NCBI RefSeq assembly: GCF_030406905.1
Contig: NZ_CP129137.1
Location: forward strand, 3,147,001 to 3,211,000
Length of the DNA stretch: 64,000 nucleotides
Source of the DNA: Streptomyces sp. HUAS CB01
GTDB taxonomy: Bacteria > Actinomycetota > Actinomycetes > Streptomycetales > Streptomycetaceae
Direction: 5' to 3'
The notes below the pieces were generated by a model. The model was not told the DNA's origin. It saw nothing but the letters and a program-made list of their open reading frames with translations, and did not search any database. Both the position numbers and the translations under genes were made by a program. Shown piece by piece: positions 20,138 to 32,584 of the stretch (positions are counted from its first letter, which is position 1; each line of letters opens with the position of its first letter).

Positions 20138-20315
20138 GCCACGCCGCACGGGGCTGAGCGGGCCGGCCCGGGGAACGGCGAGGTCCGGATTCGGCCGGGT
20201 CGCGGGCAGCCACGCGGGCCGATGCGGTTGCGGCCGGGCGGAGGGCGGACCCTAGCGGACCGATTGCATGTTCCGATGGAAAATGCCAGAACTTCCACCT
20301 GCCGACACTGCGGTG

Positions 20316-20349
20316 CGTAACCTTACGGCTACGGACATACGTCCGAGCC
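20316..20349. promoter_or_regulatory. Two adjacent palindromes upstream of the Roadblock cluster
   Basis: CGTAA-cc-TTACG (20316-20327) is a perfect 12-base palindrome. Immediately after it a hairpin-forming sequence with arms GGCT-CGGAC and GTCCG-AGCC spans 20327-20349. Both lie 32-65 bases before the first gene start. They are candidate operators; I did not find a convincing -35/-10 pair. Confidence 0.4.
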
Positions 20350-20380: not shown

Positions 20381-20791
20381 GTGCCCGGGATCGACGAGTG
20401 TCTTCTCCACGCCATGCGGCTGCCGGGAGTGCGCGGCGCCGCCCTCGTCGACTGGACCAGCGGACTCGCCCTCGGCACCGTCGGGGACGCGGCCGGCAAC
20501 GACCACGAGACGGCGGCGGCCGAGACCGCGGAACTGGCGCGCATGGCGGCGGAGCACCCCACCTTCACCCCGGTGGGCACCGCCGACGGCCCGGGCGCGG
20601 ACCACGGCAAGAACCCTCCGGTGGAGGACCTCGTCGTCACCACCCGTACGTGTTACCACGTTCTGCGGTTCGTCGAGACGAGCTTCGACAGCAGCGTCCT
20701 GCTCCACCTCTGGCTCGACCGCGCGGACGGCAACCTCGCCCTCGCCCGGCTCAGAATGCGTGACCTGACCGAGCGGCTGGTGCTGGAGTGA
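20381..20791 (+). CDS. Roadblock/LC7-like protein, first gene of the cluster
   Basis: The 136-residue protein is related to the 124-residue protein at 22108. Both share ALVDxTSGxALGT near the N-terminus, a central acidic helix and a C-terminal strand/helix (LLHLWLDRADGNLALARLR). The Roadblock/LC7 fold binds and regulates small GTPases of the MglB/CvnB type. This copy has a central insertion rich in Gly/Asp (VGTADGPGADHGKNPP). Start choice: GTG at 20381 with GGAGGGGG eight bases upstream, rather than GTG at 20360. Its stop overlaps the next start by 4 bases (GTGA). Confidence 0.72.
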   Translation: MPGIDECLLHAMRLPGVRGAALVDWTSGLALGTVGDAAGNDHETAAAETAELARMAAEHPTFTPVGTADGPGADHGKNPPVEDLVVTTRTCYHVLRFVETSFDSSVLLHLWLDRADGNLALARLRMRDLTERLVLE

Positions 20792-21546
20792 CCGTCTCAC
20801 CGATGCTGCTGCGGCTCGCCTCCGAGCGGGCCACCGGCGCCCTCTTACGGGACCGGGGAACGCTCTACCTCGTCGAGGGCCAGGTCGTGCACGCCGAGAG
20901 CCCCGCGGCGCCCGGCATCGACGTCCTCCTCGCCGCCACCGGACGGCTGCGCGCCGACGGCTGGACGGAGGCCCTCCGCGAGGCCGGCGCGCACGGCGCG
21001 GTCGGCCGGTACCTCGTCGACAGCGGCCAGGTGTCCGGCGGCGAGCTGGAGATATGCCATCTCGGGGCGCTCTTCGACGCGGCGTTCTTCGCCCTCGCCC
21101 CCAGCAGCGGACCCACCCGCTTCCGCTACGGCGTGGCCCACTGGATCGGCCCCGTACGGCCCGTGGCCGCCGAGGCCGTCGAGCGCGAGACGCTGCGGCG
21201 CCGGGCCCTGCTGGACCGTCTCTGGGCCCATCCGGAGACGGACACCGCCCCCGTGGTGCCCTCCCCCCGGCGCCCCGTGCGGGCCGCCCCGCGCCAGCGC
21301 GCCGTGCTCGACCTGGCCGACGGGGTGCGCACGCCCGCCGACATCGCCCGGGCCCTGGGCCGTCCCGCGTTCCACACCCTCGTCGACGTCCGCAGGCTGG
21401 CCGCGGCCGGGCTCGTCGAGACCCCGCGCACGGGCGTCACCACGCCCGCCCCGCCACCCGATGTCGCGCGCGTGATGGAGATGTCCGCCGATCCGGACAT
21501 CGCCCTGCTCCGCCGGCTCCGTGACGCCCTGGAGGCAACGCTGTGA
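20788..21546 (+). CDS. DUF4388-like sensor protein with winged-helix C-terminus
   Basis: The 252-residue protein opens with a short beta-rich domain (LLRLASERATGALLRDRGTL, YLVEGQVVHAESP) like DUF4388, a module often found with Roadblock proteins. A helical middle part follows. The last 100 residues look like a winged helix (AVLDLADGVRTPADIARALG, VDVRRLAAAGLVETP). It may be a regulator or adaptor; DNA binding is unproven. Codon 20 is TTA (20845-20847), implying bldA-dependent translation. It is coupled to both neighbours by overlapping stop/start codons. Confidence 0.65.
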   Translation: MTVSPMLLRLASERATGALLRDRGTLYLVEGQVVHAESPAAPGIDVLLAATGRLRADGWTEALREAGAHGAVGRYLVDSGQVSGGELEICHLGALFDAAFFALAPSSGPTRFRYGVAHWIGPVRPVAAEAVERETLRRRALLDRLWAHPETDTAPVVPSPRRPVRAAPRQRAVLDLADGVRTPADIARALGRPAFHTLVDVRRLAAAGLVETPRTGVTTPAPPPDVARVMEMSADPDIALLRRLRDALEATL

Positions 21547-21584
21547 TGCGCGCGATGAGGCAGCGCGCCGAGAGGAGACAGCTG

Positions 21585-21968
21585 ATGACCGCGAGCACCG
21601 GAGTCCTCGACGAACTGCACCGGTTGAGGACCCGGTTACCGCAGCTCACCGGCGCCCTCGCGGCCAGCGTGGACGGTCTCGTGCTGGCCCGGGACACCCC
21701 GGACGCGGAGGCGGAGACGGTCGCCGCGCTGACCGCCGCGGCACTCGGCGTGGCCGTGCGGCTCACCGAGGCCACCGGCCAGGGCCGCTTCCGCGAACTG
21801 CTCGTCCGCGGCGAGAGCGGCTATGTGGCGACGTACGCGGCGGGCGCGGCCGCCGTGCTCACCGTGACCGCCGAACCCCGGGTCAACGTCGGCCGGTTGC
21901 ACCTCGAAGCCCGCAGGGCGGGGGCCCGTATCGGCGAACTCGTGGACGGAGCACTGGAACGCCCCTGA
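21585..21968 (+). CDS. Roadblock/LC7 domain protein
   Basis: The 127-residue protein has the MglB/LC7 pattern: ALAASVDGLVLARDT, a helix ETVAALTAAALGVAVRLTEA, then strands RELLVRGESGYVATYAAGAA and AVLTVTAEP, and a C-terminal helix. ATG at 21585 has GAGGAG seven bases upstream and is preferred to GTG 21543 or ATG 21546, which overlap the preceding stop. Codon 18 is TTA (21636-21638), the second TTA gene in this cluster. Known CvnB proteins of this size pair with a GTPase (CvnD) and a histidine kinase (CvnA); neither is here. Confidence 0.8.
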   Translation: MTASTGVLDELHRLRTRLPQLTGALAASVDGLVLARDTPDAEAETVAALTAAALGVAVRLTEATGQGRFRELLVRGESGYVATYAAGAAAVLTVTAEPRVNVGRLHLEARRAGARIGELVDGALERP

Positions 21969-22107: not shown

Positions 22108-22482
22108 ATGGCGAACACCGAGACGGCCCTCAAGGAAGCGATGACCGTGATCGAGGGCGCGGTCGGCGTGGCACTCGTCGACTACACCAGCGGCATGGCT
22201 CTGGGCACCCTCGGCGGCGGCAAGCACCTCGACCTGAACGTCGCTGCCGCGGGCAACACCGACGTGGTGCGGGCGAAGCTGCGCGCGATGGAGATGCTGG
22301 GCCTCCAGGACGAGATCGAGGACATCCTCATCACCCTGGGCGGGCAGTACCACCTGATCCGGCTGCTCAAGGCGCGCGGCGGCAACGGCCTGTTCCTGTA
22401 CCTGGCCCTGGACAACCAGCGCTCCAACCTGGCGATGGCCCGCCACCAGCTGCGCAAGATCGAGGCCGAGCTGGAGGTCTGA
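22108..22482 (+). CDS. Roadblock/LC7-like protein, last gene of the cluster
   Basis: The 124-residue protein contains VGVALVDYTSGMALGTLGGG, shared with the first gene of the cluster. EIEDILITLGGQYHLIRLLK and GLFLYLALDNQRSNLAMARH are core strands and the terminal helix. It has a strong ribosome site (AAGGAGAGA, 8 bases before ATG) and lies 139 bases after the previous gene, so it may be made in larger amount or from its own promoter. It has no TTA codon, unlike the two genes before it. Confidence 0.78.
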   Translation: MANTETALKEAMTVIEGAVGVALVDYTSGMALGTLGGGKHLDLNVAAAGNTDVVRAKLRAMEMLGLQDEIEDILITLGGQYHLIRLLKARGGNGLFLYLALDNQRSNLAMARHQLRKIEAELEV

Positions 22483-26593: not shown

Positions 26594-26721
26594 CGTAAGT
26601 CTCCGGGATCTCCGTAGTGGTTCCGTCAGCGTATGCGCATTCGGCGCGAGATTGGGCGACGGCCGTTACGGGGCAGTTAGCTCATGGACGACTGCACGGC
26701 TACGAGGAGGTGGCTGGGACT

Positions 26722-27744
26722 GTGTCGAGGGCGAGGGTGGCGCGGCGCATCGCGGCGGGCGCGGCATACGGCGGCGGCGGGATCGGTCTGCTCGGAGCTG
26801 CGGCGGTGACTCTTCTGCTGGCCGAGGTGCAGCTGGCAAAAAGATCGGTGGGGGGCGGCACGGCACCCTTTCCCCCGGGGGCGGACGGCATCTACGGCAC
26901 GGCCTTCGGGCTCTCCGGGCCGCTGCGGCTGGTCCTGCTGGGGGACTCGACGGCCGCCGGGCAGGGCGTGCGCCGGGCGGGACAGACGCCGGGGGCGCTG
27001 CTCGCCTCGGGCCTCGCGGCCGTGGCCGAGCGCCCGGTGGAGCTGATGAACGTGGCCCAGCCCGGTGCGCGCTCCGACGACCTGGAACGGCAGGTGGGTC
27101 TGGCCCTGCGGGACCCGTCCCGGGTGCCGGACGTCTGCGTGATCATGATCGGGGCGAACGACGTGACGCACCGGATGCCCCCGACGCAGTCGGTGCGGTA
27201 CCTGTCGGCCGCGGTGCGGCGGCTGCGGACGGCGGGCGCGGAGGTGGTGGTGGGCACCTGCCCGGATCTCGGCACCATCGAGCCGGTGTACCAGCCGCTG
27301 CGCTGGCTCGCCCGCCGGGTCTCCCGGCAGCTCGCGGCGGCGCAGACGATCGGCGCGGTGGAGCAGGGCGGTCGTACCGTCTCGCTGGGCGACCTGCTGG
27401 GCCCGGAGTTCGCGGCGAACCCCCGCGAGCTGTTCGGCCCGGACAACTACCACCCCTCGGCGGAGGGGTACGCCACGGCGGCGATGGCGGTCCTGCCGAC
27501 GCTGTGCGCGGCGCTCGGCCTGTGGCCGGAGACGGACAGGCTGGACGCAGACCGCCGCGAGGGCATGCTGCCGGTCGCCAAGGCCGCGGCGGAGGCGGCG
27601 AGCGAGGCCGGCACCGAGGTCACGGGCGCCCGCGCCCCATGGGCCCTGCTCAAGCACCGCAGGCGCCGCCGCCTGCCGGTCCCGACGGAGCCCACACCCT
27701 CGGGAGCCCCGGCCGCGGAGGTGCGGGGACGAGCAGCGGAGTGA
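26722..27744 (+). CDS. SGNH/GDSL hydrolase with N-terminal membrane anchor
   Basis: The protein has about 340 residues. An N-terminal hydrophobic segment (AAYGGGGIGLLGAAAVTLLL) anchors or exports it. The SGNH esterase blocks are complete: block I LVLLGDSTAAGQG (nucleophile Ser), block II Gly in NVAQPGARSDD, block III IGANDVTH, block V DNYHPSAEGY (Asp/His). It probably hydrolyses an ester in the envelope. The C-terminal 80 residues are Ala- and Arg-rich. Start choice: GTG at 26722; GTG 26710 and an upstream ATG-like start at 26617 are also in frame. It is divergent from the cystathionine synthase gene. Confidence 0.85.
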   Translation: MSRARVARRIAAGAAYGGGGIGLLGAAAVTLLLAEVQLAKRSVGGGTAPFPPGADGIYGTAFGLSGPLRLVLLGDSTAAGQGVRRAGQTPGALLASGLAAVAERPVELMNVAQPGARSDDLERQVGLALRDPSRVPDVCVIMIGANDVTHRMPPTQSVRYLSAAVRRLRTAGAEVVVGTCPDLGTIEPVYQPLRWLARRVSRQLAAAQTIGAVEQGGRTVSLGDLLGPEFAANPRELFGPDNYHPSAEGYATAAMAVLPTLCAALGLWPETDRLDADRREGMLPVAKAAAEAASEAGTEVTGARAPWALLKHRRRRRLPVPTEPTPSGAPAAEVRGRAAE

Positions 27745-32137: not shown

Positions 32138-32502
32138 CTCACTCCTCCATGGCCGCCCTGCGCGGCCTTGACACAAGAGTAATGCGGGGGCAAAGACCTC
32201 GGACTAGTGCTGAAGGAGGATCTTTCCTCGATCGTGACTGACCGGTCGCTCCGGACCCCGCCGTGCTCTCTCTCCTTCCCCTACAGCCAGTGAATGGACT
32301 CACTCATTCCCGGGTCGGCGAGGTTCACGCCGGAAGCGCTGCCGGGGAGTACCGGCGGAGGGAGCGGGCAGGAGTCCTGGCGGGTCGGGGAGGCGCCGGC
32401 GGGAACGGGCCGGCTTCGGTCCGGCCGCACCGACGGCCACGCGGGCGCGAGCAAGCATTCAAGAATTCAATGATTGCCGCTCGCGCCGCAGACGCATGAA
32501 CG
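32138..32502. other. 365-base spacer between the Bax-inhibitor-like gene and bldA
   Basis: It must hold the promoter of the minus-strand membrane gene and the downstream end of bldA. The only pattern seen is GAATG-N8-CATTC at 32292-32309. No gene is supported. Confidence 0.5.
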
Positions 32503-32584
32503 TGCCCGGAGCCGGACTCGAACCGGCACGGCCCGAAGGCCAGCGAGGTTTAAGCTCGCCGTGTCTGCATTCCACCATCCGGGC
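32503..32584 (-). tRNA. bldA: tRNA-Leu(UAA), the bldA tRNA
   Basis: Read on the minus strand it forms a full class II tRNA. The acceptor stem GCCCGGA pairs with TCCGGGC and the discriminator is A. Anticodon stem GCGAG/CTCGC holds the loop CTTAAAC, giving anticodon UAA (plus-strand 32550-32552). A long variable arm (TGGCCTTCGGGCC region) marks leucine, and the T-arm is GGTTCGAGTCC. The 3' CCA is not encoded. In Streptomyces this is the only tRNA that reads UUA well; it accumulates late and controls aerial growth and antibiotic genes through rare TTA codons. Three genes in this window contain such codons. Confidence 0.97.

Follow-up and report, generated by a model that had tools for sequence, protein, structure and literature searches.

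TTA codons recur in the first three genes of a Streptomyces Roadblock operon, change position between lineages and are absent from the fourth gene

Clusters that carry a TTA codon in one or another of their genes have been described in Streptomyces, among them the amf cluster, and TTA is also frequent in cvnC13 (PMC4255298). The same source reports TTA in the adpA gene of all streptomycetes analysed. A Streptomyces genome holds on average 177 open reading frames with TTA (PMC10327506), and in that survey 18 orthogroups have TTA in half or more of the species and 11 sites are conserved, one of them in a DUF742 protein. A polar effect of TTA codons has also been suggested for a long operon (PMC2000904). 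Here we describe an operon of four genes, g1 to g4, in a 64,000-nucleotide stretch of the Streptomyces sp. HUAS CB01 genome (contig NZ_CP129137.1, positions 3,147,001 to 3,211,000), hereafter the window. Three of the genes encode Roadblock-type proteins and one, g2, a DUF4388-like protein. TTA codons occur in g1, g2 or g3 of many related operons and in none of the Streptomyces g4 copies. The likeliest reading of these sequences is that production of the g1 to g3 proteins is timed by bldA, the tRNA-Leu(TAA) gene.

All four genes lie on the plus strand. g1 (20381..20791) encodes a Roadblock-fold protein and has no in-frame TTA. g2 (20788..21546) starts with a GTG inside a GTGA overlap with g1, and its product has a DUF4388-like N-terminus and a winged-helix-like C-terminus. 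In the frame of this GTG, codon 20 is a TTA (20845..20847). g3 (21585..21968) starts with ATG and encodes an MglB/CvnB-like Roadblock protein, with TTA as codon 18 (21636..21638). g4 (22108..22482), a Roadblock-like paralogue of g1, has no TTA in frame. The only tRNA gene that ARAGORN found in the window is tRNA-Leu(TAA), i.e. bldA, on the minus strand at 32502..32584, 11.0 kb from the end of g2. The initial annotation of this DNA had reported the two TTA codons, their absence from the flanking genes of this genome and a bldA gene near the cluster, and all three observations were confirmed. Both codon numbers depend on approximate gene starts: the 247-residue length of the window's own g2 protein (P0001) suggests an ATG start at 20803, which would make the TTA codon 15, and a GTG at 21543 would extend g3 and make its TTA codon 32. 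Both TTAs lie within conserved protein. They had been described as early in their reading frames, which is true of these two and of all 53 g3 TTAs, but 35 of the 50 g2 TTAs fall in the final third of that gene (171 copies). The overlap between g1 and g2 is found in 171 of 171 copies, as ATGA in 132 and GTGA in 39 (170 counted in the frame of g2). The median gaps are 47 nt between g2 and g3 and 82 nt between g3 and g4.

A g2 homologue is present in 212 of the 246 genomes of the genus. Our survey started from 109 genomes with regions of at most 20 kb and was later enlarged by named loci and additional genomes. Of loci identical in g2 only one was counted, and L280, which has no forward g2 match, and the duplicates L221 and L222 were excluded. 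The border of the Streptomyces class is soft, in that some loci placed in it (e.g. L175 and L200) share g2 with genomes filed under other genera. Among the distinct Streptomyces copies, 125 of 213 have at least one TTA in g1 to g3. TTA is found in 55/212 copies of g1, 47/213 of g2 and 59/211 of g3, i.e. in 22-28% of the copies of each gene, and in 0/210 copies of g4. With a genome average of 177 TTA-containing reading frames (PMC10327506), such frequencies place the operon's TTAs beyond chance. In the 109-genome set, 78 operons have TTA in g1 to g3 and g4 has none (0/108). A draw from the genus covered 144 of the 212 g2-bearing genomes, all from the better-scoring matches listed and with the other 68 left out; TTA was found in 88 of the 144, which is probably high for the genus, the figure being 88/212 if every unexamined copy lacks TTA. 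Copies from other genera have TTA in g1 to g3 in 9 of 38 cases, and their g4 is free of TTA in 36 of 37. The single g4 copy with TTA, at L231, is from another genus.

The codons themselves are not shared widely. The column of the window's g2 TTA is common to L031, L032, L033, L140 and L141 and, in another clade, to L084; that of its g3 TTA is common to L031 and L032 only. Other clades have their TTAs at g3 codon 14, g2 codons 244 and 241, g1 codons 79 or 124 and other sites, and all combinations of TTA among g1, g2 and g3 occur. In S. griseus, the record of strain BIG105 (L174) has TTA in both g1 and g3. The exact codons are thus local to near relatives, and the pattern across the operon, with TTA in g1 to g3 and not in g4, is broad and above background. 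The comparison across relatives that the initial annotation proposed therefore has a divided outcome: apart from L084 for g2, the two exact codons are absent beyond near relatives, and TTA elsewhere in the operon is common. Its picture of a gated middle with ungated ends holds for the g4 end in all 210 Streptomyces copies and fails for the g1 end, which is not exempt. As a fixed design the split is contradicted by the range of combinations and represents the momentary state of one lineage.

Trees were built from the copies in which all four genes were found, 171 in one set and 244 in another. On a FastTree tree of the 244 concatenated copies (one tree, no support analysis), parsimony placed 71 gains of TTA and 13 losses in 42 columns of g1 to g3, and 1 gain in g4. 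The corresponding gains of other codons in g1 to g3 and in g4 were 61 and 8 for CTA, 152 and 14 for CTT, and 248 and 54 for TTG. Scaled by these three codons, about 12 TTA gains would be expected in g4. A second control was provided by 11 neighbouring genes, counted where present in the 109 regions. TTA accounts for 163 of 14,513 leucine codons in g1 to g3 (208 Streptomyces copies) and for 11 of 19,585 in the neighbours, an excess of about 20-fold; for CTA the counts are 61/14,513 and 23/19,585, or 3.6-fold. Since the first and the third base of TTA are both unusual, we also used the ratio (TTA/CTA)/(TTG/CTG), which is 56 in g1 to g3 and 4.5 in the neighbours without sgnh. This gene, for a GDSL hydrolase (26617-27744 in the window, with a possible TTA as codon 21), holds 9 of the 11 neighbour TTAs; 9/69 of its copies have TTA, compared with 0 to 4% of genomes for each of the other 10 genes. 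In relatives, 8 of the 9 sgnh TTAs are at residues 16-21, which precede the domain and probably lie before the true start, and the ratios are therefore given with and without this gene. As a wider background, a simple gene caller found TTA in 70 of 1,335 genes. This is an upper bound, and some of these genes are probably called from a wrong start, such as the enolase gene, in which the N-terminal domain begins at residue 100 and the TTA is codon 66.

We consider it somewhat better than an even chance (about 0.55) that this is a Streptomyces signalling operon in which g1 to g3 lie within the 'expression space' of bldA. TTA codons would be gained and retained in these genes at changing positions across much of the genus, and g4 would stay clear of them. 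When charged tRNA-Leu(UAA) is scarce, ribosomes would stall at UUA, and at least one of the g1 to g3 proteins would not be completed. Given the coupling of g1 with g2 and a probable joint action of the proteins, one UUA could hold back the whole set until the bldA tRNA accumulates. The g1/g2 overlap in every copy also means that gating by a UUA in g2 may not leave g1 wholly unaffected. g4, set apart by a spacer and served by a separate ribosome site, would be made regardless. Selection would then be the cause of TTA retention.

Several points weigh against bldA timing. No TTA is present in g1 to g3 of 88 of the 213 Streptomyces operons, and a TTA in g3 alone would not stop g1 and g2. The neighbouring genes are unmatched for expression level, which is the chief weakness of the TTA comparison, and their (TTA/CTA)/(TTG/CTG) ratio rises to 20 once sgnh is included. 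The rare codons AGA, ATA and CTA are raised in g1 to g3 as well and are lower in g4, so that relaxed codon choice is part of the TTA excess, although it does not seem to account for it. If the operon needed a TTA at some site or other, copies devoid of it should be scarce. Such compensation between sites was not significant among the 244 copies, where coverage as high as that observed arose in 682 of 4,000 random relocations of the gains along the tree (p ~0.17); the signal seen with 171 copies (174 of 5,000 random relocations, p ~0.035) was lost in this larger set. Misreading of UUA is also possible in bldA mutants (PMC4932002, PMC3814723).

Alternatively, g1 to g3 may be weakly or late expressed genes in which rare codons are tolerated, with TTA having no regulatory effect as the tRNA is present when they are translated, and with g4 expressed during growth and purged of such codons. 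We regard permissive drift of this kind as a tentative explanation that is less probable than bldA timing. The rise in AGA, ATA, CTA and other rare codons, the many operons without TTA and the lack of significant compensation in the larger set all speak for such neutral tolerance in late genes. A clade of 46 copies that mostly has the TTA at g3 codon 14 also fits, since another TTA is present in 3 of the 6 copies without it and in 16 of the 40 copies with it. Drift does not readily explain why TTA is raised about 20-fold and CTA only 3.6-fold, though CTA differs from CTG by one base and TTA by two, or why a single TTA gain was found in g4 where about 12 were expected.

The most constant feature among those we examined is upstream of g1. 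Alignment of the region before g1 revealed an inverted repeat, GCAtgTTCC-N3-GGAAaaTGC followed by CAGAAC (20266..20292, plus strand). The 21-bp repeat is ~95 bp upstream of g1 in the window and mostly 90-120 bp upstream in relatives. It was found with at most 5 mismatches in 23 positions in 194/212 Streptomyces copies and 20/38 copies from other genera, and shuffled patterns never came below 7 mismatches (20 patterns, 120 loci). The core pattern is matched exactly just once in the genome, and looser matches are no commoner than those of a reversed control. Among 81 genomes of the genus, a site with no more than one mismatch occurs in 59, never more than once per genome, and the reversed control has 0; in G070, a genome without a matched g2, the site still stands directly before a g1. 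The repeat is present in 121 of 130 copies with TTA and 88 of 114 without. A second conserved block with the consensus ACGTTGCGTAAC (20310..20321, plus strand; column frequencies in 214 anchored copies) follows at a fixed spacing from the repeat. The repeat is probably a dedicated operator of the operon, and the second block is possibly a promoter or a second binding site. A GTnAC-N6-GTnAC repeat after the inverted repeat occurs in 60 of 214 copies and is absent from that of the window. A scan with consensus patterns found 0 promoter-like sites; its 1 terminator-like hit was on the minus strand, against an expectation of 0.5.

These observations allow a more elaborate scheme, which we consider rather doubtful. 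Selection for bldA control might act on a protein complex as a whole rather than on a gene, such that any of three subunits can carry the UUA, the codon wanders between genes, and the fourth subunit stays free of UUA to serve growing cells. The genome-unique repeat would serve this operon alone as its operator and might be the target of the winged-helix-like part of g2; the operon would then regulate its own transcription, with bldA setting the time of translation. That g2 is the binder of the repeat is a guess.

UUA might also be read well enough without the bldA tRNA that nothing in the operon is gated, which we consider improbable. A C directly follows TTA in 143 of 152 cases (94%; 26 of 34 by column), and a C after UUA has reportedly been associated with misreading when bldA is mutated; such leaky reading would weaken the gating. 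However, C is also usual after other A-ending codons of g1 to g3 (GTA 91%, CTA 85% and TCA 80% in 171 copies), indicating that the context is not an adaptation specific to TTA. It looks like a general codon-pair habit. Among the 1,335 other called genes, C follows TTA in only 38 of 78 cases, but we attach no particular significance to the context. Evidence from S. ghanaensis without bldA points both ways, with residual AdpA on the one hand and, on the other, no detectable MoeE5, whose gene has two TTA codons (PMC3814723).

The nearness of bldA, to which the initial annotation drew attention, finds no support as a cause of the TTAs. bldA is 9.0-13.4 kb away on the opposite strand in 37 of the 101 regions that extend 13 kb or more downstream, and this nearness is inherited gene order. 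Among 14 hand-chosen genomes, most of them taken because the operon lacks its usual neighbours, ten have the operon 1.0-5.6 Mb from bldA (G012, G038, G054, G058, G069, G074, G083, G096, G134 and G199), and all ten keep TTA. TTA is likewise present in 19 of 21 regions without the usual neighbours (L121 and L126 lack it), and 7 of the 37 regions with bldA within 13.4 kb have none. Proximity is therefore neither needed nor enough. A designed split that gates only the two middle genes with the aid of a nearby bldA describes this genome, L031 and L032 but is very improbable, being largely refuted by this distribution and by the g1 copies with TTA.

The g1 protein matches Pfam Robl_LC7 below the cut-off, and its predicted model (pLDDT, the predicted local distance difference test score, 80) has the order H-E-E-H-E-E-E-H, with the Roadblock protein of S. 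avermitilis (3kye) as the best Protein Data Bank (PDB) match in Foldseek (E 4.4e-6); judged by this model, g1 has a Roadblock fold. g3 matches Robl_LC7 with 67.7 bits, above the cut-off of 23, and its PDB relatives are 7f8m, CvnB5 (3leq) and MglB; it is a clear Roadblock protein and kin of CvnB and MglB. g4 has no Pfam match; it is 32% identical to g1 (BLASTP E 2e-18), which makes it a paralogue. The genome has 3 matches to g4, including a second g4-like gene (80% identity) at G000:C1:2520961-2521329. g2 has weak Pfam matches to DUF4388, DUF742 and winged-helix families, all below cut-offs; for DUF4388 the score was 18.7 bits against 25, and a g2 homologue, P0047, carries PF14332. The g2 model is poor (pLDDT 62, best at residues 151-210). 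No fold was assigned from this low-confidence model, for which the best match had an E-value of 0.18, and a profile search of the PDB gave 0 matches. The named homologues among the 120 listed are mostly annotated as 'transcriptional regulator', which is annotation only. No kinase or GTPase profile matched any of the four genes or the neighbouring genes scanned, and the search for a partner was confined to these.

Operon copies in relatives that vary in the place or presence of TTA constitute a natural experiment, in which a bldA switch that regulates could be told from one that merely accompanies late expression. The conserved, genome-unique repeat in turn offers a handle on this Roadblock signalling system. 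The results also bear on how bldA targets are counted. Each of g1, g2 and g3 has TTA in 22-28% of copies and falls below a listing based on half of the species (PMC10327506), though 125 of 213 operons carry TTA, so scoring whole operons could reveal missed targets. A literature search with partial coverage yielded no study that we recognised as treating this operon or its Roadblock signalling system.

Among known systems, the operon shares features with the conservons (cvnA-B-C-D): g3 resembles CvnB, g2 has a weak DUF742 match, and TTA occurs in a component, as in cvnC13. We considered and rejected a conservon, because the set of kinase-like cvnA, cvnB, cvnC and GTPase cvnD is absent among the operon genes and the neighbours scanned. 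Instead of a cluster with a histidine kinase-like and a GTPase gene, there are three Roadblock-type genes and one DUF4388-like gene. The products of g3 and g1 (the latter through its model) also match MglB of the Myxococcus MglA/MglB pair, but no MglA gene adjoins them and no GTPase partner is known. UUA-dependent timing of the kind proposed here follows the same logic as in adpA, where TTA is present in all streptomycetes analysed (PMC4255298), whereas in this operon the TTA-bearing gene and the place of the codon change. That TTA can fall in one or another gene of a cluster is already known from the same source, and this operon adds to that class. The TTA-frequent clusters in its Table 2 (amf/ram, SCO0381-0383, SCO0683-0685 and celB-celS2) resemble it in that regulatory or signalling genes make up about half of the list; no SCO number could be assigned to the operon, so a row of that table may be this very operon. 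It differs from them in its gene set, in the sharing of TTAs by three genes with frequent turnover, and in the exemption of the fourth.
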